Positions 37,068-48,490 are shown, numbered from the stretch's first letter. The stretch is DNA of 64,000 nt from Rhodospirillales bacterium (GCA_018666775.1 JABIXC010000003.1:124001-188000), one strand, 5' to 3'. Notes: generated from the sequence alone by a model not told the origin. Program-made: numbers and translations.

Positions 37068-37142
37068 GCGGGCGTAGCTCAGGGGTAGAGCACAACCTTG
37101 CCAAGGTTGGGGTCGAGAGTTCGAATCTCTTCGCCCGCTCCA
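37068..37142 (+). tRNA. tRNA-Gly (GCC anticodon)
   Basis: 75 nt including an encoded CCA. The acceptor stem GCGGGCG (37068-37074) pairs with CGCCCGC (37132-37138). The D arm GCTC...GAGC, an anticodon stem CAACC/GGTTG with loop TTGCCAA (anticodon GCC at 37100-37102), and a T arm with GTTCGAATC are all present. Reads GGC and GGU glycine codons. Confidence 0.97.
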
Positions 37143-37211
37143 ATATTTCTGCCAAACGGGTGCTGTGGTTGCTCGCTACTTGTGGGGGCCCATTTGTGGG
37201 TGATTGTGAAG

Positions 37212-37757
37212 ATGCCTGAATTGATCAGCGAAGAATACCGGCGACAACAGGAAAAACTGCACGAAAACCCGGATTACGGGCTTGCTTCTGTGGTAACGGC
37301 TCCGATGTTAGCGGAACTTGTTGTAAAGAATAACATTCAACACATTCTGGATTATGGGGCAGGCAAGGGCCGACTAGGCGAGATCTGTAAGGAAAAACTA
37401 TCCCCCTGTCCTAAATTTCACCACTACGACCCAGCGATCCCTAAATGGTCGGGGAAACCGGAACCGCGCGAATTGGTTGCTTGCATTGATGTGTTGGAAC
37501 ATATCGAGCCCAATTGTCTCGATAGCGTCTTGGACGATCTTCAGCGTGTTACACAGAAAATCGGTTTTTTCACAGTGCATGGCGGCCCGGCGGGTAAAAA
37601 CCTACCTGATGGACGCAACGCCCATCTTATTCAGGAACGGGCTGGTTTTTGGCTTCCAAAATTTATGGAATGGTTTGAATTGCATATGTTCCAGCGGATC
37701 GATGAAAACCGATTTGTCATCGCCGTTGGCGTATTGGCCCCAAAGCCCAAAAACTGA
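37212..37757 (+). CDS. Small class I SAM-dependent methyltransferase-like protein
   Basis: A 181-residue protein with SAM motif ILDYGAGKGRLGEIC, an acidic second motif (LVACIDVLEHIEP) and FFTVHGGPAGKN. Target unknown. It begins with MPELISEEYRRQQEKLHENP, 70 bp after the tRNA-Gly. Small methyltransferases with this kind of N-terminus are, as I recall, common in phages, and a tRNA 3' end is a favoured integration site, so transfer is possible but unproven. The ATG 37212 is preferred to the longer frame that runs through the tRNA. An intrinsic terminator follows. Confidence 0.72.
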   Translation: MPELISEEYRRQQEKLHENPDYGLASVVTAPMLAELVVKNNIQHILDYGAGKGRLGEICKEKLSPCPKFHHYDPAIPKWSGKPEPRELVACIDVLEHIEPNCLDSVLDDLQRVTQKIGFFTVHGGPAGKNLPDGRNAHLIQERAGFWLPKFMEWFELHMFQRIDENRFVIAVGVLAPKPKN

Positions 37758-37778
37758 TGTCTGTCTGGTTTAGCCTGT

Positions 37779-37810
37779 AACCCCCGATCTCGGGCCAGGG
37801 GTTTTTTTTA
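37779..37810 (+). terminator. Rho-independent terminator after the methyltransferase gene
   Basis: AACCCC and GGGGTT flank a GC-rich inner hairpin, followed by an eight-T run. It lies 22 bp after the stop and isolates the tRNA-methyltransferase unit from the CBS gene. Confidence 0.85.
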
Positions 37811-37862
37811 CTGCCAAATCTGCTACACTCCTCTAACGCTTAACAAGCAGAGGAGGAAAACC

Positions 37863-38291
37863 ATGCTTGTGGATACTGTTCTCCGTTTAAAGGGTAGTAG
37901 CGTTGTTACCGCATCTCCAGAAACGCCTATTGGCGAAATTGCACGCCTGCTTCATGACGCCCGTATTGGCGCCGTGGTTATCAGTGCCGATGATAAAACG
38001 CCCGATGGCATTTTATCCGAAAGGGATATTGTTGCGGCAATCGCCACAGAAGGCTCAACGGCCCTGGACCATAAGGCATCTGAATTGATGACGTGCGAGG
38101 TGATCACCTGTGCGCCCGGTGATGGGGTGGCGGGATTGATGGATGTTATGACCCAAAACCGTATTCGCCATTTGCCAGTGATGGCCAATGGTGCCTTGTG
38201 CGGCATGATGTCTATCGGTGATGTGGTGAAATGCCATGTCGATGAAATCGAACACGAAGCCGAAGCCCTTAGGGCTTACGTCGCACAATAA
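37863..38291 (+). CDS. CBS-domain-pair protein
   Basis: A 142-residue protein consisting of two CBS motifs: SVVTASPETPIGEIARLLHDARIGAVVI with GILSERDIVAAI (first) and TCAPGDGVAGLMDVMTQNRIRHLPVM with GMMSIGDVVK (second). Such stand-alone pairs bind adenine nucleotides and act as energy or redox sensors; the partner is unknown. A strong AGAGGAGG ribosome-binding site precedes the ATG. Confidence 0.93.
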   Translation: MLVDTVLRLKGSSVVTASPETPIGEIARLLHDARIGAVVISADDKTPDGILSERDIVAAIATEGSTALDHKASELMTCEVITCAPGDGVAGLMDVMTQNRIRHLPVMANGALCGMMSIGDVVKCHVDEIEHEAEALRAYVAQ

Positions 38292-38311
38292 GAGCGCAAG
38301 AATTTGGTGTT

Positions 38312-39016
38312 TTAGAATGGCGCGATGATGGTCTTTACAAAGGGGCTTAAAACATTATCGCATAAACAGAGCGCCTTGATCTGGCTCAAGCTCGCGGCAA
38401 TGAACTGGCCATCATAGGGTTGGGCCAGTGCGTCGATATCGGGCACCAGAAGAATCCGGTTTTCATTCGTCTTGCGCCAAAAACGCCCCCCTTCTTCATT
38501 GTGGCTGGCGGTGTATAGGGTAATGACTTCGCCATCATCCAAAAGAAGCTCCCCCAGTGGGGGCAGTTTTCCCTTATGGGCTTGGCGCAGGTTGCTTCGG
38601 GTTGCCTGAATGGTTGGTGAAAGTTGCAGGTAGCCAATATTGCCGGGCTCGGGTTTCGCTTGAAGCAGAAAATATATCTCATCACCCCGTAACCCGCAGG
38701 CAAGGGCGAGGATGCCGCCGTCTGGTTGGGTGATAATGGGTTGGTCCCATTCTGCAACTTCGCGCGCGGTTCCTGCCTTGGTCCGCACACCGTTGATGGC
38801 AAAAAATTGCCCCGATTCATGGCTGAGCGCACCAGATTGAGGATCATTGTGCCAACCATGGAGTTCGGAAAGTGGCACCAGGCTCGCTTCGAATTTAAGA
38901 TTCTCTCGGCGTTGTTCCAGATGATCGATGATGGGTTGCGGATCGGTTGGCTCTGTCTGAGCACTGATGCGCAGACCGTTACGGAAATCATCCAGATTAT
39001 GGATTGGCAGGGTCAT
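38312..39016 (-). CDS. NDP-hexose 2,3-dehydratase family protein (single domain)
   Basis: A 234-residue protein with the family core FLLQAKPEPGN, LQLSPTIQATRSN and a following H-x-G region (about residues 115-150). Well-studied members (TylX3, SpnO, EvaA) carry two copies of the domain in about 460-490 residues; this one has a single copy. In those pathways the enzyme removes the C2 hydroxyl of NDP-4-keto-6-deoxyglucose to give a 3,4-diketo-2,6-dideoxy sugar. It is last in the operon, overlapping the aminotransferase gene by 4 bp. Confidence 0.75.
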   Translation of the reverse strand: MTLPIHNLDDFRNGLRISAQTEPTDPQPIIDHLEQRRENLKFEASLVPLSELHGWHNDPQSGALSHESGQFFAINGVRTKAGTAREVAEWDQPIITQPDGGILALACGLRGDEIYFLLQAKPEPGNIGYLQLSPTIQATRSNLRQAHKGKLPPLGELLLDDGEVITLYTASHNEEGGRFWRKTNENRILLVPDIDALAQPYDGQFIAASLSQIKALCLCDNVLSPFVKTIIAPF

Positions 39017-40125
39017 GACAGGGTTTCCAAAATTTCAAGCAGCGCAGAACACACCTGCTCTTGATCGGCTTTGGCAAATGCTGGGTACATTGGCAGCGAG
39101 AAAATCTCCCGCGCGGCTTTTTCGGTTTCAGGTAGATCGCCCTCTTTATATCCCAATTTGGCGTAAGCCTTCATGGTGTGAATGGGCCAGGGGTAGCTGA
39201 TGTTGAGCATGATATCGCGTTGGGCAAGTGATTCGATAATCGCGTCACGTTTAGGGTGCCGGACGACATAAAGATACCATGCGTGTTGGTTCCCCGGCGC
39301 CGTTGTCGGCAGGACAAGGCCCCCCGATTGCAGGTCTGTTTGGTACCGTGCGGCGATCGCAGTGCGTTGGGCAACCCATGTTTCGATATGGCGGAGCTTG
39401 ATTGAAAGAATGGCGGCCTGAACTTCATCAAGCCGGGAATTATAGCCATTTTCTTCCGCGTAATACCGCCCCTTCATGCCATACATGCGTAAAGACCGGG
39501 CATGTTCCAGCAACGCCGGATCAGATGCGGTGATCATGCCGCCATCACCATAGGCACCCAGAACCTTGGTTGGATAAAATGACCATGCACTTATGTCGCC
39601 AAAGGTTCCGGCGCGCTGGCCATTGTGCGCCGCCCCGGTGCATTGCGCACAATCTTCCAGCACGAAAAGACCATGTTTCTTTGCTGTTGATGTAATGGAG
39701 TCCATGTCGCCGCATTGTCCATAAAGGTGGACGGGTAACACGCATTTTGTTTTCTCTGTCACCGCGCCAGCCAGAAGCCCCGCGTTCATTTGATAGGTGT
39801 CGGGATCAATATCAATAAAGCGTGGGCGTGCCCCGGCCGCGATGATGGCAGCCACGGTTGGCACGGCTGTATTGGCAACGGTGATCACCTCGTCTCCGGG
39901 CCCAATACCAAGTGTTTTTAAGCCCAAAAACAGCGCGTCAGTCCCACTGTTAACGCCGACGCCGGGGGTGTCTAAATTACAAAAATCAGAAAATTCACGT
40001 TCAAATGCCGCGACATGTTCTCCTAAAATAAGGCGGCCTGATTTAAACACACCATCAACAGCGGCAAGAATTTCTTCTCGCAGCTCCTTGTATTCATCAC
40101 GATAGTCCCAAACACCAATGGTCAT
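39013..40125 (-). CDS. DegT/DnrJ/EryC1/StrS-type sugar aminotransferase
   Basis: A 370-residue PLP enzyme of the fold-type I sugar aminotransferases. Evidence: GVNSGTDALFLGLKTLGI, EDCAQCTGAAHNG, the PLP lysine in WSFYPTKVLGAYGDGGMI and YNSRLDEVQAAIL. It would add an amino group at C3 or C4 of the diketo or keto deoxysugar made by neighbours. It shares a TAATG junction with the Gfo/Idh gene upstream and an ATGA with the dehydratase downstream, indicating tight translational coupling. Confidence 0.93.
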   Translation of the reverse strand: MTIGVWDYRDEYKELREEILAAVDGVFKSGRLILGEHVAAFEREFSDFCNLDTPGVGVNSGTDALFLGLKTLGIGPGDEVITVANTAVPTVAAIIAAGARPRFIDIDPDTYQMNAGLLAGAVTEKTKCVLPVHLYGQCGDMDSITSTAKKHGLFVLEDCAQCTGAAHNGQRAGTFGDISAWSFYPTKVLGAYGDGGMITASDPALLEHARSLRMYGMKGRYYAEENGYNSRLDEVQAAILSIKLRHIETWVAQRTAIAARYQTDLQSGGLVLPTTAPGNQHAWYLYVVRHPKRDAIIESLAQRDIMLNISYPWPIHTMKAYAKLGYKEGDLPETEKAAREIFSLPMYPAFAKADQEQVCSALLEILETLS

Positions 40126-41081
40126 TAAACACTCTCTTTTATGTGTGACCGAAGACCATCACAGAACCGGGCATCTTGAAGAAGTGCCGAATGAAATTCG
40201 GCCGATGCATTGGTTTCTATGCCATTCAGAACACGATTGATCATAGCGGTGAAACAATCGCCGGGCGATGATGTGATTGTTTCGAATGCATTGTTTCTGC
40301 GAATTCCAATTTCCAATGCCATGTCTGGCGGCGGGGTAAAAACCCGATCAAGTTTGATGGCAAGCCCATGCCCGGTCCCTTGAATCCAGTTTTGATATTC
40401 CGTGTCAAAACCAAACGTTCCTGAAAAAATTCCGCCACCCGCATATACGGCCGTCACAGAAAACGCTGTTTCTACTTTTTTGTCATCACTGTGGGATAAG
40501 GCGTAACAGGTCATTTCAAGGGGGTCTATTTTAAAAAAATACCGACAAGTTGCCGCGGCATAAGGCCCCAGATCATTGATGGCACCCCCACCATTGGGAT
40601 CATATCGAAAGTTATCTTTGGGCAGGGGTGGAAATGAAAAACAGGCATGTATTCTATAGGGTTGGTTCGGGCCACGAGGAATGGCGGATAGATCCGCAAT
40701 CCGGGGGTGATCCAGAAAGACAGTTGCCTCAGCAAATATGACGTTCTTTGATTCTGCCAATGTAACAAGTCGCTCCGCGTCTTTGAGATTGAGCGTAGCG
40801 GGCTTATCGGCGATGACGTGTCGGCCCGTTTCAAGGGCGGCTTTTATAGCATCTGTATGGGCGCTGTTTTCAAGGGAAACATAAACGATTTCTGCCGCGC
40901 TTTCAGCCAGAGCAACGTCGATGCTGTCATAGACCGTGCCGTCTTGGGAAATCAGGTTTGGTGCGGCGTCTGATTTGTGCCGACTGGCAATATCAATGCC
41001 GTCAATACAGGGGATTGATTTTAATGCCGGGATGACGCGGCGGCTGGCAATTGATGAGCACCCCAGGATAAGCACTCTCAT
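40125..41081 (-). CDS. Gfo/Idh/MocA-family oxidoreductase
   Basis: A 318-residue NAD(P)-binding protein: N-terminal LILGCSSIASRRVIPAL and the family catalytic-region ADKPATLN, with a C-terminal alpha/beta dimerisation domain. In 2,6-dideoxysugar routes, Gfo/Idh enzymes act as the 3-ketoreductase after the 2,3-dehydratase; that role fits here by context. The gene lies 5 bp downstream of the ArnC-like glycosyltransferase gene. Confidence 0.88.
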   Translation of the reverse strand: MRVLILGCSSIASRRVIPALKSIPCIDGIDIASRHKSDAAPNLISQDGTVYDSIDVALAESAAEIVYVSLENSAHTDAIKAALETGRHVIADKPATLNLKDAERLVTLAESKNVIFAEATVFLDHPRIADLSAIPRGPNQPYRIHACFSFPPLPKDNFRYDPNGGGAINDLGPYAAATCRYFFKIDPLEMTCYALSHSDDKKVETAFSVTAVYAGGGIFSGTFGFDTEYQNWIQGTGHGLAIKLDRVFTPPPDMALEIGIRRNNAFETITSSPGDCFTAMINRVLNGIETNASAEFHSALLQDARFCDGLRSHIKESV

Positions 41082-41086
41082 TTAAA

Positions 41087-42076
41087 TCACCGCTCTTGTG
41101 TGTCGGGCGTGTCTGCATGCCCATTTTCTGGGGACACGTCCGAACCAGAAGTTTTTATACGTCGGATGCTTGATTGCGGAAGGGTACCGATGCTCATAAA
41201 CGTTCTGCCCGTATATTCACCGATCAATCCAAGAAATATAAATTGAAGGCCGAAAAAAACCAGCATGACGATCATCAGCGATGCCCAACCGGGGGCGACA
41301 GCACCGCTCATAAAATAATCCAGAACCACATAGGCCGCCCCCAACGAGGACAGTCCGAACAGGCCCAGCCCAATGATCATGCTGATGCGCAGGGGCTGGA
41401 TAGAAAAATTGAACAGGATGTGCATCCACAACCGCACAAGTTTGCGCAGTGTGTAGTTGCTGTTGCCTATGGTTCTTTCAAGGTGGGTCACCGTTATACT
41501 GGCGACGTGGCTGGTATTTTTTAGAATCATTCCCTCAATATAGGGATAAGGGCCATTATAGGCGGCCAATTCACCAACCAATCGCTGGCTCAGACAGCGA
41601 AAGGATGACAGGGTCAGGCCATGGGGTTTATCGAGCAGGAGGTTCGATGTTTTATCGGCCAGCCACCCCCCAAAATTTCGCCACGGGGCATATTTTCTTT
41701 CATCGAAAGCACCAAAAACGGCATCCAAATCGTTTTCTTGCGCGTAAGCATGAAGTTTGGAAATCTCATCTGCGGGTTGTTGTAAATCATCATCCATGGT
41801 GATGACGTAGTCACCGCGGGCATATCGCAATCCGGTTAAAACAGCATTGTGTTCGCCAAAATTTCGGGCCAAATCGATAAACGTAATGGGCAAGGTGGAT
41901 GTTTCGACCAGGGAGTCGCAAATTTGGGCGCTGTCATCTTCGCTGCCGTCATTCACCAATATGACTTCCATGCCGCCCGGGATCGAAATTTTTTCCAGCA
42001 TATTTATCAGCGATGGCACAGTTTCAGCCCCGTTGAAAACGGGAATCACGACACTAATAGTAAGGTTTTCAGCCAA
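41087..42076 (-). CDS. ArnC/GtrB-like polyprenyl-phosphate glycosyltransferase (GT2)
   Basis: A 329-residue GT2 with ISVVIPVFNGAETVP, VNDGSEDDS and the metal-binding MDDDLQQP. The YPYIEGMIL segment, NYTLRKLVRLW and two C-terminal membrane helices (about residues 230-290) are typical of ArnC/GtrB/DPM1 enzymes that charge undecaprenyl phosphate with a sugar on the cytosolic face. The preferred start is a TTG at 42076 (GGGA upstream, begins MAENLTISVVIP); an ATG at 42127 would extend 17 residues into the upstream gene. Confidence 0.88.
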   Translation of the reverse strand: MAENLTISVVIPVFNGAETVPSLINMLEKISIPGGMEVILVNDGSEDDSAQICDSLVETSTLPITFIDLARNFGEHNAVLTGLRYARGDYVITMDDDLQQPADEISKLHAYAQENDLDAVFGAFDERKYAPWRNFGGWLADKTSNLLLDKPHGLTLSSFRCLSQRLVGELAAYNGPYPYIEGMILKNTSHVASITVTHLERTIGNSNYTLRKLVRLWMHILFNFSIQPLRISMIIGLGLFGLSSLGAAYVVLDYFMSGAVAPGWASLMIVMLVFFGLQFIFLGLIGEYTGRTFMSIGTLPQSSIRRIKTSGSDVSPENGHADTPDTQER

Positions 42077-42809
42077 TTTTTTTCCCAACAACAAGTATGG
42101 AGCCTCCAAAAGGGAAGCGCAGTCCACATTTTAGCAAAAAATGTTCAACGCGCATTACAGCGTTGAAGATAACTTCAAGTGCGGCAGGGTAATCCGTAAC
42201 ATCGCTTTTCCCCGCCTGCGTGCTTGAAAACAGTTTCCTGCGTATAACCATCAATGGAAACAGAAGTGTGTTCCAATAAGAGGAATATTCAATCATAAAC
42301 CCGGCATCTTCCAGTATTTTACACAGGCGACGTCTTGTAAAGCGGCGCGCGGTGTAAACGGCGTCGTCATGGTAACTTCGCATCCAGTTATATGCGGGCA
42401 CATGAACAACGAAAATACCCCCCGGGGCAATGCACCTAAAGGCGTCTTTGGCGGCAAGCTCGGGATCGGCCCATTGGTGATAGAGCACATCCGATGAAAT
42501 GATAGCCGAAAAAACATCTTCATCGAACGGCAGCGCATTGACCGACCCAACCAGAGTGACAGCCCCCGATTTTTTCGCAGCGGCCTTTGTGGCATAGGGG
42601 GATGCATCAATGCCAATGGTCTCGGCGGATGGCCGCGTGTCATGGAGAATTTTTAACATCCCGCCGGTGCCACACCCGGCATCCAGAAGACGTTCGCTTT
42701 GGTTTGGGTGATGGCGTTTTATGGCCCAGGCAAGGTTGGTATGCAGGCCGCGATACCACCACATGCTGTCTTCCATCTCAGCCATTTTTTCAAATTCATC
42801 AGGCTGCAT
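42069..42809 (-). CDS. Class I SAM-dependent methyltransferase
   Basis: A 246-residue methyltransferase with motif I LLDAGCGTGGMLKIL and IISSDVLYHQWADPE. It has a membrane-associated or hydrophobic C-terminus. In sugar clusters such enzymes add N-, O- or C-methyl groups; here the target may be the amino sugar, but that is inference. The ATG 42809 (MQPDEFEKMAEM) has AGAGG upstream and fits the family; an upstream in-frame start adds 11 residues. Confidence 0.82.
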   Translation of the reverse strand: MQPDEFEKMAEMEDSMWWYRGLHTNLAWAIKRHHPNQSERLLDAGCGTGGMLKILHDTRPSAETIGIDASPYATKAAAKKSGAVTLVGSVNALPFDEDVFSAIISSDVLYHQWADPELAAKDAFRCIAPGGIFVVHVPAYNWMRSYHDDAVYTARRFTRRRLCKILEDAGFMIEYSSYWNTLLFPLMVIRRKLFSSTQAGKSDVTDYPAALEVIFNAVMRVEHFLLKCGLRFPFGGSILVVGKKIG

Positions 42810-42865
42810 GGATGCCTCTAGGGGCGGCGGCTGGCCACCCATGGATGGCTATATTGATTGAAGGT

Positions 42866-43741
42866 TTATAATTCATCGAGAATGCTGGCAAGGTAGCACC
42901 CGTATTCACTGTCGCGGTATTCATCAACCAGGGCTGAAAATTCTTTTTTGTTTATGAAACCGGAGCGAAAAGCAATTTCTTCGGGACAGGAAATTTTTAG
43001 GCCAGCGCGTTTTTCGATGACCTTGATAAATTCGGAAGCCTCAAGCAATGCTTCGGGCGTGCCACAGTCAAGCCATGCCGTCCCCCGTCCCAGAAGTGAA
43101 ATATCCAGATTGCCCTGCTCAAGAAGGCATCGGTTAACATCCGTGATTTCAAGCTCACCACGCGCTGAAGGCGTTATGGTCTTGGCAACGCTAACAACAT
43201 CACCGCCATAAAAATAAAGCCCGGGCACGGCCCAGTTAGAGGCTGTCGCTTTCGGCTTTTCCACAAGGTTTGTCAGGGCGTCATTTTCATCAAGGGTAGC
43301 AATCCCAAAATTTTCCGGGTCCTTAACCTTGTATCCAAAGATGGTGTTTTTACCGACGTCTTCGGCAATTTTTTGCAGCGCAACGCTTAGGTCGTTGCCG
43401 TAAAATATATTGTCCCCAAGAATAAGCGCGACGGGATCGTTGTCAATAAAGTCTTCTGCAAGAAGGAATGCCTGTGCAATGCCTTCGGGGTTTTTTTGTT
43501 CGACATAAGAAAAACGCAGCCCCCATTTTTTCCCATCCCCAAAAAGCTGTTGAATAAGAGGCAGCGATTCCGGGGAAGATATAATCAAGATATCCTGGAT
43601 CCCTGCCAGCATCAGCGTTGATAGGGGATAATAGATCATTGGTTTATCGTAGACGGGCAGCAATTGTTTGCTGACGACCTTGGTCATTGGGAAAAGACGT
43701 GTTCCCTGCCCGCCAGCCAATATGATGCCCTTATTAAACAT
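42866..43741 (-). CDS. rfbA: Glucose-1-phosphate thymidylyltransferase RmlA
   Basis: A 291-residue nucleotidyltransferase: GIILAGGQGTRLFPMT, KQLLPVYDKPMIYYPLS, LGDNIFYG and VEKPKA. It makes dTDP-glucose, the precursor for the deoxysugar pathway. Ends with a short YLASILDEL. Located 33 bp downstream of rmlB. Confidence 0.96.
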   Translation of the reverse strand: MFNKGIILAGGQGTRLFPMTKVVSKQLLPVYDKPMIYYPLSTLMLAGIQDILIISSPESLPLIQQLFGDGKKWGLRFSYVEQKNPEGIAQAFLLAEDFIDNDPVALILGDNIFYGNDLSVALQKIAEDVGKNTIFGYKVKDPENFGIATLDENDALTNLVEKPKATASNWAVPGLYFYGGDVVSVAKTITPSARGELEITDVNRCLLEQGNLDISLLGRGTAWLDCGTPEALLEASEFIKVIEKRAGLKISCPEEIAFRSGFINKKEFSALVDEYRDSEYGCYLASILDEL

Positions 43742-43774
43742 GGTTGCTTGCTTTCATTAAGGTTGGTGGGACGT

Positions 43775-44836
43775 TTAACGGCCCAACCCAAGTCGGGCAC
43801 CGTCGTATAATTCAACTTTCATCTGTTCCCGCCAATCTTCATTGTCGAGATACCATTGCACCGTCATTTCAAGGCCAGCGTCAAATTTGTGGGATGGCTG
43901 CCAGCCAAGTTTCTTTTTTGTCATTGAGGCATCAAGGGCATATCTGAAATCATGCCCCGGACGATCTTTGATAAAGGTAATTAGAGACTGGTAGTCATCT
44001 GTCCCGGCGCGGGGCTTCATTTTGTCCAGCATCTGGCAAATCGTTTTGGTTATCTCAAGGTTGCTTTTTTCTGCATCACCGCCAAAAACATAGGTATCCC
44101 CGGGCATGCCATTGGCAAGAACATTCAGGAGCCCCGCGACGTGGTCATCAACATAAAGCCAGTCACGGACATTGCTGCCGTCACCATACAGGGGAATGGG
44201 CTGTTCATCCAAAGCCTTGCCAATAATGACGGGAATTAATTTATCGGGAAATTGGAATGGGCCGTAATTATTGGAGGTGTTGGTGACAATGGTTGGAAGG
44301 TTGTACGTTCGGTGCCACGCACGGACCAAATGGTCCGCAGAAGCCTTGCTGGCAGAATAGGGAGAATTTGGGCGGTATGGGCTGGTTGCATCGAAGTGAC
44401 CATTGGCATCAAGACTTCCAAAAACCTCATCGGTGGAAACATGGATGAACCGGAAAGCTTCTTGAGCATCGTTGCCCAAGGTTTCAAAATATTCTGTGGT
44501 AGATTCTAGCAGGTTAAAAGTGCCAATGATATTGGTCTGAATAAATTTTGCCGGGCCATCGATGGATCGATCAACATGGGTTTCGGCCGCCAGATGAACA
44601 ACGGCATCAGGGCATGTGTCAAAAATGATTCTGCGGACATCATCACGATTGGCGATATCAATTTTTTCAAATCTATAATGGGGATTCCCATCGGCGACTG
44701 CAAGTGCCCCGGGGGTGGCCGCATAGGTGAGGCTGTCAATGTTAATAACATCAAGGTCGGGTTGGGCTAATGCGCGTCGCACAAATGCAGATCCGATAAA
44801 ACCTGCCCCCCCCGTTACAAGAATTCGCATAGTCAT
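43775..44836 (-). CDS. rfbB: dTDP-glucose 4,6-dehydratase RmlB
   Basis: A 353-residue extended SDR: TGGAGFIGSAFVRR, HLAAETHVDRSI, the active-site STDEVFGSL and YSASKAS (Tyr-x3-Lys). It converts dTDP-glucose to dTDP-4-keto-6-deoxyglucose. RmlC and RmlD are not found in the window, so the product is not L-rhamnose unless they are elsewhere. ATG 44836 is given; an in-frame ATG at 44830 may be the real start (MRILVTGG). Confidence 0.95.
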   Translation of the reverse strand: MTMRILVTGGAGFIGSAFVRRALAQPDLDVINIDSLTYAATPGALAVADGNPHYRFEKIDIANRDDVRRIIFDTCPDAVVHLAAETHVDRSIDGPAKFIQTNIIGTFNLLESTTEYFETLGNDAQEAFRFIHVSTDEVFGSLDANGHFDATSPYRPNSPYSASKASADHLVRAWHRTYNLPTIVTNTSNNYGPFQFPDKLIPVIIGKALDEQPIPLYGDGSNVRDWLYVDDHVAGLLNVLANGMPGDTYVFGGDAEKSNLEITKTICQMLDKMKPRAGTDDYQSLITFIKDRPGHDFRYALDASMTKKKLGWQPSHKFDAGLEMTVQWYLDNEDWREQMKVELYDGARLGLGR

Positions 44837-44905
44837 TAACCCACATAAAATAAATAAACCTGCACCACAACATACTTCATGATGCCATAGTCTGCATAGT
44901 TATCC

Positions 44906-46423
44906 CTAGCGCAACAAACGATCCAGAGGGCGTCCGCGGCCATCTACGGTTTTGCTGATGGCATAATACAGAACGGCTTCACTGAACCCCATGGCCTTTA
45001 ATTTGGGCATGGGGCCTTTGCTGATGCGCTTTTCGGCTTTGAAAAAATCAGAAGCAATCCGAGGCATGGTATCTGCCGAGATTGTGTTGGCGCTTTGCCA
45101 AACAAGGATTCCAAGCATGAACGTTAATAGGCCGGGAACGACAATAATACTATGGTGTTTGAATGCCCCCTCTCTGGCCATGAGTTTGCCAAGGGTGAGC
45201 AGACATATTCCAAACAGCATTGCGGGCGCGATGACCATAAGCAGCCTGCCAGCAAGCCGTCCCCAGAAATTATATGCCTTAAACCAGGGTTCAAAGAGTT
45301 CGGTGTTTAATTGCGAAATAACACCATAGGTGAGGATCGCAATTGCGAGCCACACAAGAATCAGCAGGATCAAATCTGCCCCAACCGTACCGCGCGCTAA
45401 AAGCCATTTTTGTGTCACTGCATAAAGAGACGTATCCCCCAGCAAAGCGTTGTGCAGGGAAGACGTTTTTAGGACAGCAAAGACCACCGCGCATAGGGCG
45501 ATTGTCCCCCCGATCAAAAAATACAGGGCATTGGTGCCGATCAGGCTATCGAACATGGATTCGCGCAGGACAAAACTTGTCATGCCAACAAGAAGGGCGA
45601 TAGCGATTTTGGGTGTGCGAAAAATTTCCGGACGGAGAACAACATCCATTCCAAATAACAAAGCAAGGAGCATGCCCGACGAGCTTAGATGGATAAAAGA
45701 AAGCAAAATCACCAGCAAATAGGACAGGAAGTATGCGTTGTTCCAGCGTAAGGCGAAGACGCCAATCATAAGGAGGGCAAAGTTGCTGCGCGGTGGGAAT
45801 GAAAGGGGCGAAAACTGTGTTGATGGATGAAGCAACATTTCAATCGTATTTTTTGCCATATCCCAAAAACTATTTTGCAAGACAAGATGCGCAAATGAAT
45901 TGTCTTTCAATGGCAAATAGAATGCGATCCCATACAGAATGATCGTTACCCCCAGTGCCCATGAAAAAACGCTGTTTCTGATAAAGTAAAAAATCCCTAT
46001 CAACAGACTTAATGCGAAGGCAAAAGAGGCAACAAACCCGATCGTAATGGATTGCGCAAGATACATTGGATAGAGCGATGGTATGGGATCAAACAGGGGT
46101 TTGAATACGCGGCTGACCCCATAGTGAATGATGCCAGGAAGCGTATATTCATTTAGATAATCCCGGTGCAAAATCAGGCGCTTCATGGCGTGAGGGCGGG
46201 TTTTTCCTTTTTGTTTAAAGTGCTTAACCGCACGGTTGTTAAGCGCCAGAACTTCTTTTTCATGAAAAACATTAAGACCAGATATATAAAAAAGAAGGTT
46301 GTCGTCACTTCCGCGCGCGCCCGTCGAAATAAAATTGAGGTTCGTCGCAAATCCGGAAATCAGGACAATGGCCAGAATGAGGATTTGCCCGTGGCGGTGG
46401 AGAAATTGTCGTAGGAGGGACAT
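44906..46423 (-). CDS. Multipass membrane protein, GT-C-like candidate
   Basis: A 505-residue protein with about ten or eleven membrane segments. After the first helix comes an exposed loop with GSDDNLLFYISG; an acidic pair at this position is where GT-C glycosyltransferases keep their catalytic Asp. The rest does not match a family I recognise. Position between flippase-like and rmlB genes, in the same operon, suggests the periplasmic transferase of the pathway, but a polymerase or an unrelated role is possible. Start uncertain: ATG 46423, 46432 or 46456. Confidence 0.6.
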   Translation of the reverse strand: MSLLRQFLHRHGQILILAIVLISGFATNLNFISTGARGSDDNLLFYISGLNVFHEKEVLALNNRAVKHFKQKGKTRPHAMKRLILHRDYLNEYTLPGIIHYGVSRVFKPLFDPIPSLYPMYLAQSITIGFVASFAFALSLLIGIFYFIRNSVFSWALGVTIILYGIAFYLPLKDNSFAHLVLQNSFWDMAKNTIEMLLHPSTQFSPLSFPPRSNFALLMIGVFALRWNNAYFLSYLLVILLSFIHLSSSGMLLALLFGMDVVLRPEIFRTPKIAIALLVGMTSFVLRESMFDSLIGTNALYFLIGGTIALCAVVFAVLKTSSLHNALLGDTSLYAVTQKWLLARGTVGADLILLILVWLAIAILTYGVISQLNTELFEPWFKAYNFWGRLAGRLLMVIAPAMLFGICLLTLGKLMAREGAFKHHSIIVVPGLLTFMLGILVWQSANTISADTMPRIASDFFKAEKRISKGPMPKLKAMGFSEAVLYYAISKTVDGRGRPLDRLLR

Positions 46424-46547
46424 TGGAATCATTTCTTTGTGTTTAGGGAAGATCACTCAACGTAGAGGCTTCGTATCATGGAACCAAAATAGAAGTTTTT
46501 TGGTACGAATTCCCAATAAAAAAATCAAACAGGGGTATCAGATGAAT

Positions 46548-47504
46548 TTATTGGCGGGGCTGTATCAGCCAGATCACCCCGCCGGGCAATGTGGTTGCCA
46601 GTAGACCGACCCCAAAAATTAAAGACAAACTAAGCGCTGCTTCGGGTGCGATGCCGGCAAAGCCAAGGAAGAAAGCCATTGCCCCTTCGCGCAATCCCCA
46701 ACCGGCATAAGAAAGTGGAATAACGGAGGCCAGGATGACAGGGGGCACCAATGCCAATGCCAAACCGGGTTCCAGGTAAATCCCAAGCCCAGCTGCCAAT
46801 GCCAAAATGGCAGAGACAGTGAGCAGATGGACCAGGGTAGATAGGAACAGGCATAAAACGGTTTGCCCGCCCGCCAGAAACGTTTTTTTGGAGGCCGTGC
46901 TGATGTCTTTGGCCCAGGTGAACAGGGCACCAATCACAGGCAGGGTAAAAAGCCGTTGCCATAGAGGAATGCGGTGAAACACGATCATTATGCCAACGCT
47001 CGTAAAAACCGCCAGAACAAGGCCGCCCAGTGTTGCTGGCAACCGGCTGTCACCCTCCAGCTCAGTCAGAAAGGGCAGGCCAAAGGTGATGAGAATGACC
47101 AGCCCAACCAGGGCAGCAATTCGGTCAAGGCCAACAGAAACCATGGCGCGCAGCGGTGCGCTGCCGCCTTTGAAAATGTGCCACATTCTAAAGGCATCGC
47201 CTGCTAAATTAGTGGGCAACGCCTGATTTATAAAAAGGCTAATGTAGGTAACCCTGTACACGTCCCAATATTTCATGGGTAATTCCTGGGTTCCAAGGAT
47301 AATTTTCCATCGCCATGCGGTGATGCCAATGGCGATGATTTCCAGCCCAAAGGCCAAGGCAAGGGCGGGTATCGAGATAGATTTCAGCCGTGCGCCCAAC
47401 AGCGCCAGATCAATGTCTGAAAAAACCCAGATAATGAGGCCAGCGGATATGGCGACTTTAATCGCCCCCAAGACCCACGTCTTTTTATTTATGGCCAACG
47501 CCAT
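46548..47504 (-). CDS. Flippase-like (UPF0104/LPG-synthase TM region) membrane protein
   Basis: A 318-residue protein with seven to eight hydrophobic segments. It shows the family pattern: an early WRWKIILG segment, FINQALPTNLAGDAFRMW and SYAGWGLREGAMAFFLG, features of the TIGR00374/LPG_synthase_TM family. Members have been linked to lipid or polyprenyl-sugar translocation. Function here is inferred from context. It overlaps the EamA gene by 16 bp. Confidence 0.85.
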   Translation of the reverse strand: MALAINKKTWVLGAIKVAISAGLIIWVFSDIDLALLGARLKSISIPALALAFGLEIIAIGITAWRWKIILGTQELPMKYWDVYRVTYISLFINQALPTNLAGDAFRMWHIFKGGSAPLRAMVSVGLDRIAALVGLVILITFGLPFLTELEGDSRLPATLGGLVLAVFTSVGIMIVFHRIPLWQRLFTLPVIGALFTWAKDISTASKKTFLAGGQTVLCLFLSTLVHLLTVSAILALAAGLGIYLEPGLALALVPPVILASVIPLSYAGWGLREGAMAFFLGFAGIAPEAALSLSLIFGVGLLATTLPGGVIWLIQPRQ

Positions 47505-48490
47505 TCCATGAGCTCCTGAGGCAGGTCCAGATAGGGCGCAATCATGTCAATGGACACAGCAAGTGCCAGGGCACCCAAAAGTGAGATCACCATACCGACC
47601 ACCATTTTTGCGTCAAATATTTCATGTTCGCGGTTCACCAATGTGCTGAACAGGGTGCGGAAAACAATGGACGTGCGCTGAATGGGCGACACAACCGATA
47701 CAGGGGCAATGGTCAGTGCTGCGTAGCGAAACATTTGAGCAACACATACGGCAACGCCGGAAAAAAGAAACCAGGGCAGGGATTTGCGATCGGTTGCCCT
47801 GATTTCTGAAATACGGCCTTTGGGGATAAGGAAAAGACAAAAAAAGATCGAAGCCGCAAAATAGGAAACAAGTCCGGCAGCCATGCTCTTGTCGCTGTGT
47901 TCAAGGCCTAAGCGCACGAAAATTGGGCTGAGCCCGTAGCCTGTCGCTGTCAGTGCGGCAAAGATGTAGCCTTCCATATATTTTGGTTCGAACTTTTTGG
48001 GGGCATCGGGGTTTTCTTCAGACCCTTTTGCTTCGCTCTCTTTTTTAGCTTTTTGTGCTTTTTTGCGTCGACCCATAACCATGACCGCAGGGCCGATGGC
48101 GATCAAAATCAGTCCTAACACGCGCAAAGGGGTCAATTGTTCGTCCAGCCAGATGATGGCCAGCGTTACGGACATGATCAGGTTCACCTGCTGTACCGGC
48201 CCGGCCAGATTGGCGCCAATGGCTTTGACGGCTCGATACCCACAATACCGTCCCCATACGAAATGAAAGACACCAGCCAGTGAAAGCCAAACATAAGCCA
48301 TGCCATCAAAGGTGAAAATGGCATCAAGCTCACCTGCGACGACAGCAACGATAAAAAACAGGGGAACACCCAGAGGCACGGTGACGGCCAAGGCCTGAAA
48401 CGTCGTGGATGCAATTACCCCCCGGCGTATGCTGGCGCTGTTCAGCCCAAAGGATGCAGCAGAAATAAGGGCATAAAGTGCGCCAAGCAT
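47489..48490 (-). CDS. EamA/DMT-family membrane protein
   Basis: A 333-residue drug/metabolite transporter with ten helices in two EamA repeats, joined by a long charged linker (KKAQKAKKESEAKG...). FHFVWGRYCGYRAVKAIGANLA and GLILIAIGPAVMVMG are EamA signatures. Related small proteins (ArnE/ArnF) flip undecaprenyl-phosphate-aminosugar, so this could be a flippase of the deoxysugar operon; import or export of another metabolite is equally possible. First gene of the minus-strand run of ten. Confidence 0.82.
   Translation of the reverse strand: MLGALYALISAASFGLNSASIRRGVIASTTFQALAVTVPLGVPLFFIVAVVAGELDAIFTFDGMAYVWLSLAGVFHFVWGRYCGYRAVKAIGANLAGPVQQVNLIMSVTLAIIWLDEQLTPLRVLGLILIAIGPAVMVMGRRKKAQKAKKESEAKGSEENPDAPKKFEPKYMEGYIFAALTATGYGLSPIFVRLGLEHSDKSMAAGLVSYFAASIFFCLFLIPKGRISEIRATDRKSLPWFLFSGVAVCVAQMFRYAALTIAPVSVVSPIQRTSIVFRTLFSTLVNREHEIFDAKMVVGMVISLLGALALAVSIDMIAPYLDLPQELMEWRWP

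Follow-up and report, generated by a model that had tools for sequence, protein, structure and literature searches.

A candidate gene set for the synthesis and lipid-carrier transfer of a dideoxy amino sugar in a Rhodospirillales bacterium

The closest described systems for lipid-carrier glycosylation of the bacterial envelope are Arn, which acts on lipid A by way of UDP-L-Ara4N, ArnC and ArnT, and Gtr, in which GtrA, GtrB and a Gtr-specific protein modify O-antigen. A different body of work concerns the 3-amino-2,3,6-trideoxyhexoses, sugars met mainly in antibiotics of actinomycetes. The route to one of them, angolosamine, comprises RmlA, RmlB, a 2,3-dehydratase, a 3-aminotransferase, a 4-ketoreductase and an N-methyltransferase (PMC9452638). 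Here we describe a locus in which elements of both kinds appear to be combined. It lies in a stretch of 64,000 nucleotides (nt) from a Rhodospirillales bacterium (GCA_018666775.1 JABIXC010000003.1:124001-188000), hereafter called the window. A preliminary description of this DNA had recognised ten co-directional, often overlapping genes (38312-48490) as one system for the synthesis, flipping and transfer of a dideoxy amino sugar.

All ten open reading frames (ORFs) were found at these coordinates on the minus strand, closely packed and with intergenic gaps of -59 to +124 nt. Pfam and NCBIfam concurred with the families first proposed for nine of them, ORF 44906-46423 being the exception. With good confidence, the product belongs to the 2,6-dideoxy amino sugars and is borne on a polyprenyl carrier. 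With more reserve, we favour the reading that a nine-gene unit makes and exports a dTDP-derived 3-amino-2,3,6-trideoxy-D-hexose of the D-acosamine/angolosamine type via this lipid carrier. The system would be a form of Arn/Gtr-type lipid-carrier glycosylation, with predicted periplasmic steps and a predicted acceptor in the envelope.

Predicted synthesis of the sugar

Synthesis starts with the formation of dTDP-4-keto-6-deoxyglucose by RmlA and RmlB. Both the glucose-1-phosphate thymidylyltransferase RmlA (42866-43741; TIGR01207, 411 bits, cut-off 361) and the dTDP-glucose 4,6-dehydratase RmlB (43775-44836; TIGR01181, 443.6 bits, cut-off 365) exceeded the curated equivalog cut-offs of NCBIfam, in agreement with the dTDP-sugar start proposed initially. 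RmlC, searched for with PF00908, was detected neither in the locus nor in the whole 98%-complete genome (11 of 14 control genomes were positive), and RmlD was not present among the genes of the locus, where it was looked for; the reported lack of both enzymes was thus borne out within this scope. Judged by PF00908, the genome lacks the RmlC step of the dTDP-L-rhamnose pathway, and because it has no RmlC-type epimerase a D-sugar is expected.

The next enzyme is a single-domain NDP-hexose 2,3-dehydratase of 234 amino acids (38312-39016), which very probably removes the C2 hydroxyl and would thereby yield a 3,4-diketo-2,6-dideoxy sugar. It scored 163.4 bits with PF03559 (Pfam cut-off 25). With its one domain it has half the usual size, whereas all other dehydratase ORFs examined had two domains in a tandem Nudix-like arrangement. 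In EvaA, catalysis takes place in pocket A, while pocket B is an inactive relic of a duplication (PMC8987622). The pocket A glutamates E139 and E190 of EvaA correspond to E123 and E174 of the window enzyme and were invariant across 24 sequences, and 27 of the 32 columns that are invariant among 23 relatives were retained. An AlphaFold2 model (predicted local distance difference test, pLDDT, 85.7) had EvaA as its best fold match in the PDB, with a template modelling score of 0.77; the non-EvaA matches listed scored 0.46 or less. PF03559 was present in two of 385 sampled genomes of the class, which supports the earlier remark that the gene combination is unusual for an alphaproteobacterium, and among 398 genomes sampled from the phylum it occurred in the window's own genome only (weak matches in genomes G009 and G135 were below cut-off and were disregarded).

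The one-domain form may have arisen either through loss of the second half or through recombination between the repeats. In the broadly sampled tree the enzyme grouped with N-terminal halves. In a comparison aimed at a clean chimera of N-half front and C-half back, its last third was intermediate by half-profile score (11.1; lowest N-half 49.7, highest C-half 1.8); it contains a C-half-like EEGGRF motif. The idea of an ancestral, pre-duplication dehydratase, which arose from a first tree with the window enzyme between the clades of N-halves and C-halves, was abandoned once larger sampling placed it among the N-halves.

Addition of the amine, predicted to occur at C3, is assigned to a DegT-family aminotransferase (39013-40125; Pfam, PDB matches and tree). 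In comparisons with solved structures it scored 302 bits with DesV and 290 bits with QdtB, against 197 for perosamine synthetase and 156 for ArnB. DesV, QdtB and WbpE, the nearest characterised enzymes of solved structure, are C3 aminotransferases, while perosamine synthetase and ArnB act at C4. The window enzyme would thus be a C3 sugar aminotransferase of the EvaB/DnmJ kind, and it probably bears a close resemblance to DnmJ of daunosamine synthesis. The window enzyme fell into a clade (support 99/96) with aminotransferases encoded near 2,3-dehydratases in actinomycetes, on a Serratia plasmid and in a spirochaete, and the top matches of an unselected plasmid search were likewise dehydratase-linked. 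The sets of S. clavuligerus and Kitasatospora consist of dehydratase, short-chain dehydrogenase/reductase (SDR), aminotransferase and 3,5-epimerase and have no Gfo; this is the classical set for 3-amino-2,3,6-trideoxy-L-sugars. Since the clade is dehydratase-linked and the nearest characterised relatives aminate C3, a 3-amino-2,3,6-trideoxy-D-hexose is considered likelier than a 4-amino sugar. The dideoxy amino-sugar chemistry of the preliminary description is kept, but not its preference for a 4-amino-2,6-dideoxy product. The Serratia plasmid locus (L073:5382-11239), which adjoins ketosynthase genes, combines this kind of aminotransferase with a 2,3-dehydratase and a C-methyltransferase of the EvaC type.

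Reduction at C4 may be carried out by a Gfo/Idh oxidoreductase (40125-41081; Pfam, PDB match and tree), the weakest step of the sugar pathway. Its best solved match was KijD10 with 112 bits, the next reaching 54, and in the alignment Lys120 and Tyr204 (chain numbering), which we take to be the catalytic residues of KijD10, were retained. The window and spirochaete enzymes formed a clade of their own on a long stem (99/100), with KijD10 outside it and weak deep branches. By analogy with angolosamine synthesis, the role of a 4-ketoreductase would fit this enzyme best, because a C3 aminotransferase is present. Finally, a class I S-adenosylmethionine-dependent methyltransferase (42069-42842), assigned by Pfam and paired with the glycosyltransferase gene in related genomes, might N- or O-methylate the sugar.

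Predicted lipid carrier steps, extent of the unit and related loci

Loading of the sugar onto polyprenyl phosphate is very probably the task of an ArnC/GtrB-like glycosyltransferase of family 2 (GT2; 41087-42127; Pfam, NCBIfam and PDB match). It has two C-terminal transmembrane helices, and its nearest solved structures, as anticipated, were ArnC (129 bits) and then GtrB; with the ArnC equivalog it scored 147 bits, far under the NCBIfam cut-off of 529. The true start probably lies downstream of the annotated one (GTG, 42127), because homology begins at residue 21-22. A start at TTG 42076 is preferred and would leave an overlap of 8 nt with the methyltransferase stop.

A flippase-like membrane protein of family PF03706 (46548-47504; Pfam 148 bits, cut-off 33) could, speculatively, flip the lipid-linked sugar. 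Equally speculative is the candidate for its final transfer to an envelope glycan, a polytopic membrane protein of 505 amino acids (44906-46423) whose GT-C-like layout was recognised by eye. Its first loop has an acidic residue within the sequence SDDN. This protein had no match in Pfam, NCBIfam or the PDB, and its AlphaFold2 model, computed without an alignment, was too poor for a fold search (pLDDT 45.6). The sole homologue found (28-30% identity) is encoded directly beside a GT2 gene in genome G096.

The tenth gene encodes an EamA permease (47489-48490; Pfam) that is probably not a dedicated part of the system, even though its ORF overlaps that of the PF03706 protein by 16 nt. Nine of the family's 11 genomes have it. 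In genome G009 (locus L084) the order is a YbbN-like gene, tRNA-Gly, a dioxygenase-like ORF, EamA (55% identity), a phosphatase-like ORF and gdhB (the dioxygenase-like and phosphatase-like labels were assigned by eye), with not a single sugar gene between tRNA-Gly and gdhB; G010 has the same interval without EamA. Given this synteny and its distribution in the family, EamA is regarded as an inherited old neighbour of gdhB. Its presence beside gdhB in a genome without the sugar genes speaks against a dedicated flippase that occurs only together with them, and the unit therefore comprises nine genes (38312-47504). Of the ten-gene system first proposed, the nine sugar genes remain. From gene order they appear as extra content of the window genome, lying between the tRNA-Gly region and the EamA-gdhB pair. 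No promoter signal above that of shuffled sequences was obtained in scans, and the terminator-like sites, 24 against a mean of 15, did not clearly mark an operon boundary.

The low-coordinate border of the variable interval is a tRNA-Gly(GCC) gene (37068-37142, plus strand). Across the family the interval from this gene to gdhB (37068-48490 in the window) differs, with three ORFs in G009, no EamA in G010 and nine sugar genes in the window. ORF 37212-37757, also in this interval, had no Pfam match; in G001 a homologue with 32% identity (L091:4154-4603) is located immediately upstream of gdhB.

None of the other genomes searched yielded the full gene set, whether of nine or ten genes, and what the search for a conserved gene order brought to light were recurring modules. 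In Spirochaeta sp. LUC14_002_19_P3 (L019), a single run comprises the genes for GT2, GtrA (PF04138), a dehydratase with two domains, Gfo and aminotransferase, with RmlA and RmlB elsewhere on another contig. Two genomes of the window's family, G001 and G002, have adjacent homologues of methyltransferase and GT2 (46-48% identity) together with an aminotransferase, and an SDR where the window has dehydratase and Gfo; the cassette of G002 also includes RmlA, RmlB and a large membrane protein. The dehydratase loci of Kordiimonas, Pseudomonas, Roseococcus, Hoeflea, an acidobacterium and genome G110 had neither a GtrB-like GT2 nor Gfo alongside.

In three of three further genomes of the spirochaete's phylum (L122, L123, L124) the 2,3-dehydratase gene adjoins Gfo. 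A GtrB-like GT2 lies within a few kilobases of the pair in two of them (L122, L123), one of which also has GtrA and an aminotransferase of another class. Same-family cassettes at L055:7081-15365 and L054 encode the methyltransferase-GT2 pair, a small drug/metabolite transporter (DMT), an aminotransferase, an SDR with N at the expected tyrosine of YxxxK (by eye), RmlA, RmlB and a membrane protein of 562 amino acids. Tailed-phage contigs (L097, L100-L108; for example L100:7676-11086 and L104:7995-11351) carry a two-domain 2,3-dehydratase, Gfo/Idh and an aminotransferase in fixed order, in L100 between the genes for tail sheath and tube and those for topoisomerase II. No description of a phage-made dideoxy amino sugar was found in the papers searched.

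Weighing of alternative pathways

Several observations weigh against the proposed D-hexose pathway. The closeness of the Gfo enzyme to KijD10, a 3-ketoreductase, would put the amine at C4, and the sample for the aminotransferase tree was gathered mostly via dehydratase neighbourhoods. The dehydratase has a long branch (length 1.3-1.5) and is missing five of the 32 invariant residues, two of them adjoining the catalytic glutamates; it could thus be impaired. The methyltransferase was unlike any characterised sugar methyltransferase in the PDB search, and transport and transfer depend on weak families. Furthermore, the G+C content of the nine genes is close to that of the flanks and gives little sign of recent transfer.

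The first of these points leads to a route in which a KijD10-type 3-ketoreductase and a C4 aminotransferase would make a 4-amino-2,4,6-trideoxy-D-hexose, as in forosamine-type pathways. KijD10 is far ahead of all other solved matches of the Gfo enzyme, whose Lys and Tyr are retained, and the phage contigs offer a precedent for dehydratase-Gfo-aminotransferase triples, but the aminotransferase in them is not of the same class. Against this route, the window aminotransferase belongs to the C3-type, dehydratase-linked clade, clade mates of it occur in sets that lack Gfo, and the window and spirochaete Gfo enzymes form a separate, long-stemmed clade. Amination at C4 is therefore considered unlikely, though it is the strongest competitor of a 3-amino product.

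Improbable to a greater degree is that the dehydratase is a decayed remnant and that the present product of the locus is a less elaborate 6-deoxy amino sugar, which is presumably also what the dehydratase-free cassette of same-family genomes produces. Loss of the second domain, the long branch and the five altered residues would agree with decay, as would the existence of relatives (G001, G002) that have methyltransferase-GT2 and aminotransferase and no dehydratase. However, the reading frame is open and overlaps the aminotransferase gene by 4 nt, the fold is predicted with confidence, and both catalytic glutamates are kept along with most invariant residues; the lost half corresponds to the pocket that is itself inactive in EvaA. 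In addition, the window aminotransferase belongs with the dehydratase-linked enzymes, which the G001/G002 enzyme does not. That the operon decorates a secreted antibiotic-like small molecule instead of an envelope glycan is very unlikely: such chemistry is mostly associated with antibiotics of actinomycetes (PMC8987622), but no polyketide or peptide synthase is encoded among the genes, and the glycosyltransferase is a GT2 of the polyprenyl-phosphate kind, which was not seen in the actinomycete loci.

Comparison with known systems

The combination of lipid-carrier glycosylation of the envelope with sugar chemistry of the antibiotic type would probably represent a new variant of the Arn/Gtr type. 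If so, a highly deoxygenated amino sugar joins the Gram-negative surface repertoire, and the resulting basic, hydrophobic envelope modification would in principle be comparable to Ara4N on lipid A. A more far-reaching proposal, put forward tentatively, is that a Gram-negative envelope is decorated along an ArnC-like route with a 3-amino-2,3,6-trideoxy-D-hexose made by a one-domain dehydratase, possibly formed by recombination between repeats, which would show the second domain of EvaA to be dispensable. As the smallest 2,3-dehydratase seen in the analysis, the window enzyme would help to probe the role of that domain. The open-access papers searched, a collection without most subscription journals, yielded no paper that links a 2,3-dehydratase to undecaprenyl carriers.

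A close arrangement, that of Spirochaeta L019, likewise groups a GT2, a dehydratase, a Gfo and an aminotransferase of 58% identity into one run, but its dehydratase has two domains, GtrA is present, the run contains no methyltransferase, and RmlA and RmlB are encoded on another contig. With the actinomycete 3-amino-2,3,6-trideoxysugar pathways (angolosamine, daunosamine, epivancosamine) the window shares RmlA, RmlB, a 2,3-dehydratase, a related aminotransferase, a reductase and a methyltransferase. It differs from them in that the dehydratase has one domain, Gfo/Idh replaces the SDR 4-ketoreductase, there is no epimerase, and the glycosyltransferase is of the lipid-carrier and not of the natural-product type.

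The likeness to Gtr O-antigen modification lies in the GtrB-like GT2 and the candidate specific membrane transferase; the window operon has no GtrA, in contrast to the spirochaete version, and brings its own sugar synthesis. From Arn it departs in using a dTDP route through a 2,3-dehydratase, in encoding, within the ten genes, no Arn-type enzyme that would oxidise or deformylate UDP-sugars, in having a PF03706 protein in place of ArnE/F, and in the score of its GT2 (147 bits against the 529-bit ArnC cut-off). What it would have in common with Arn is the overall plan, in which an amino sugar made on a nucleotide is passed by an ArnC-type GT2 to undecaprenyl phosphate and is then, as predicted, flipped and transferred.

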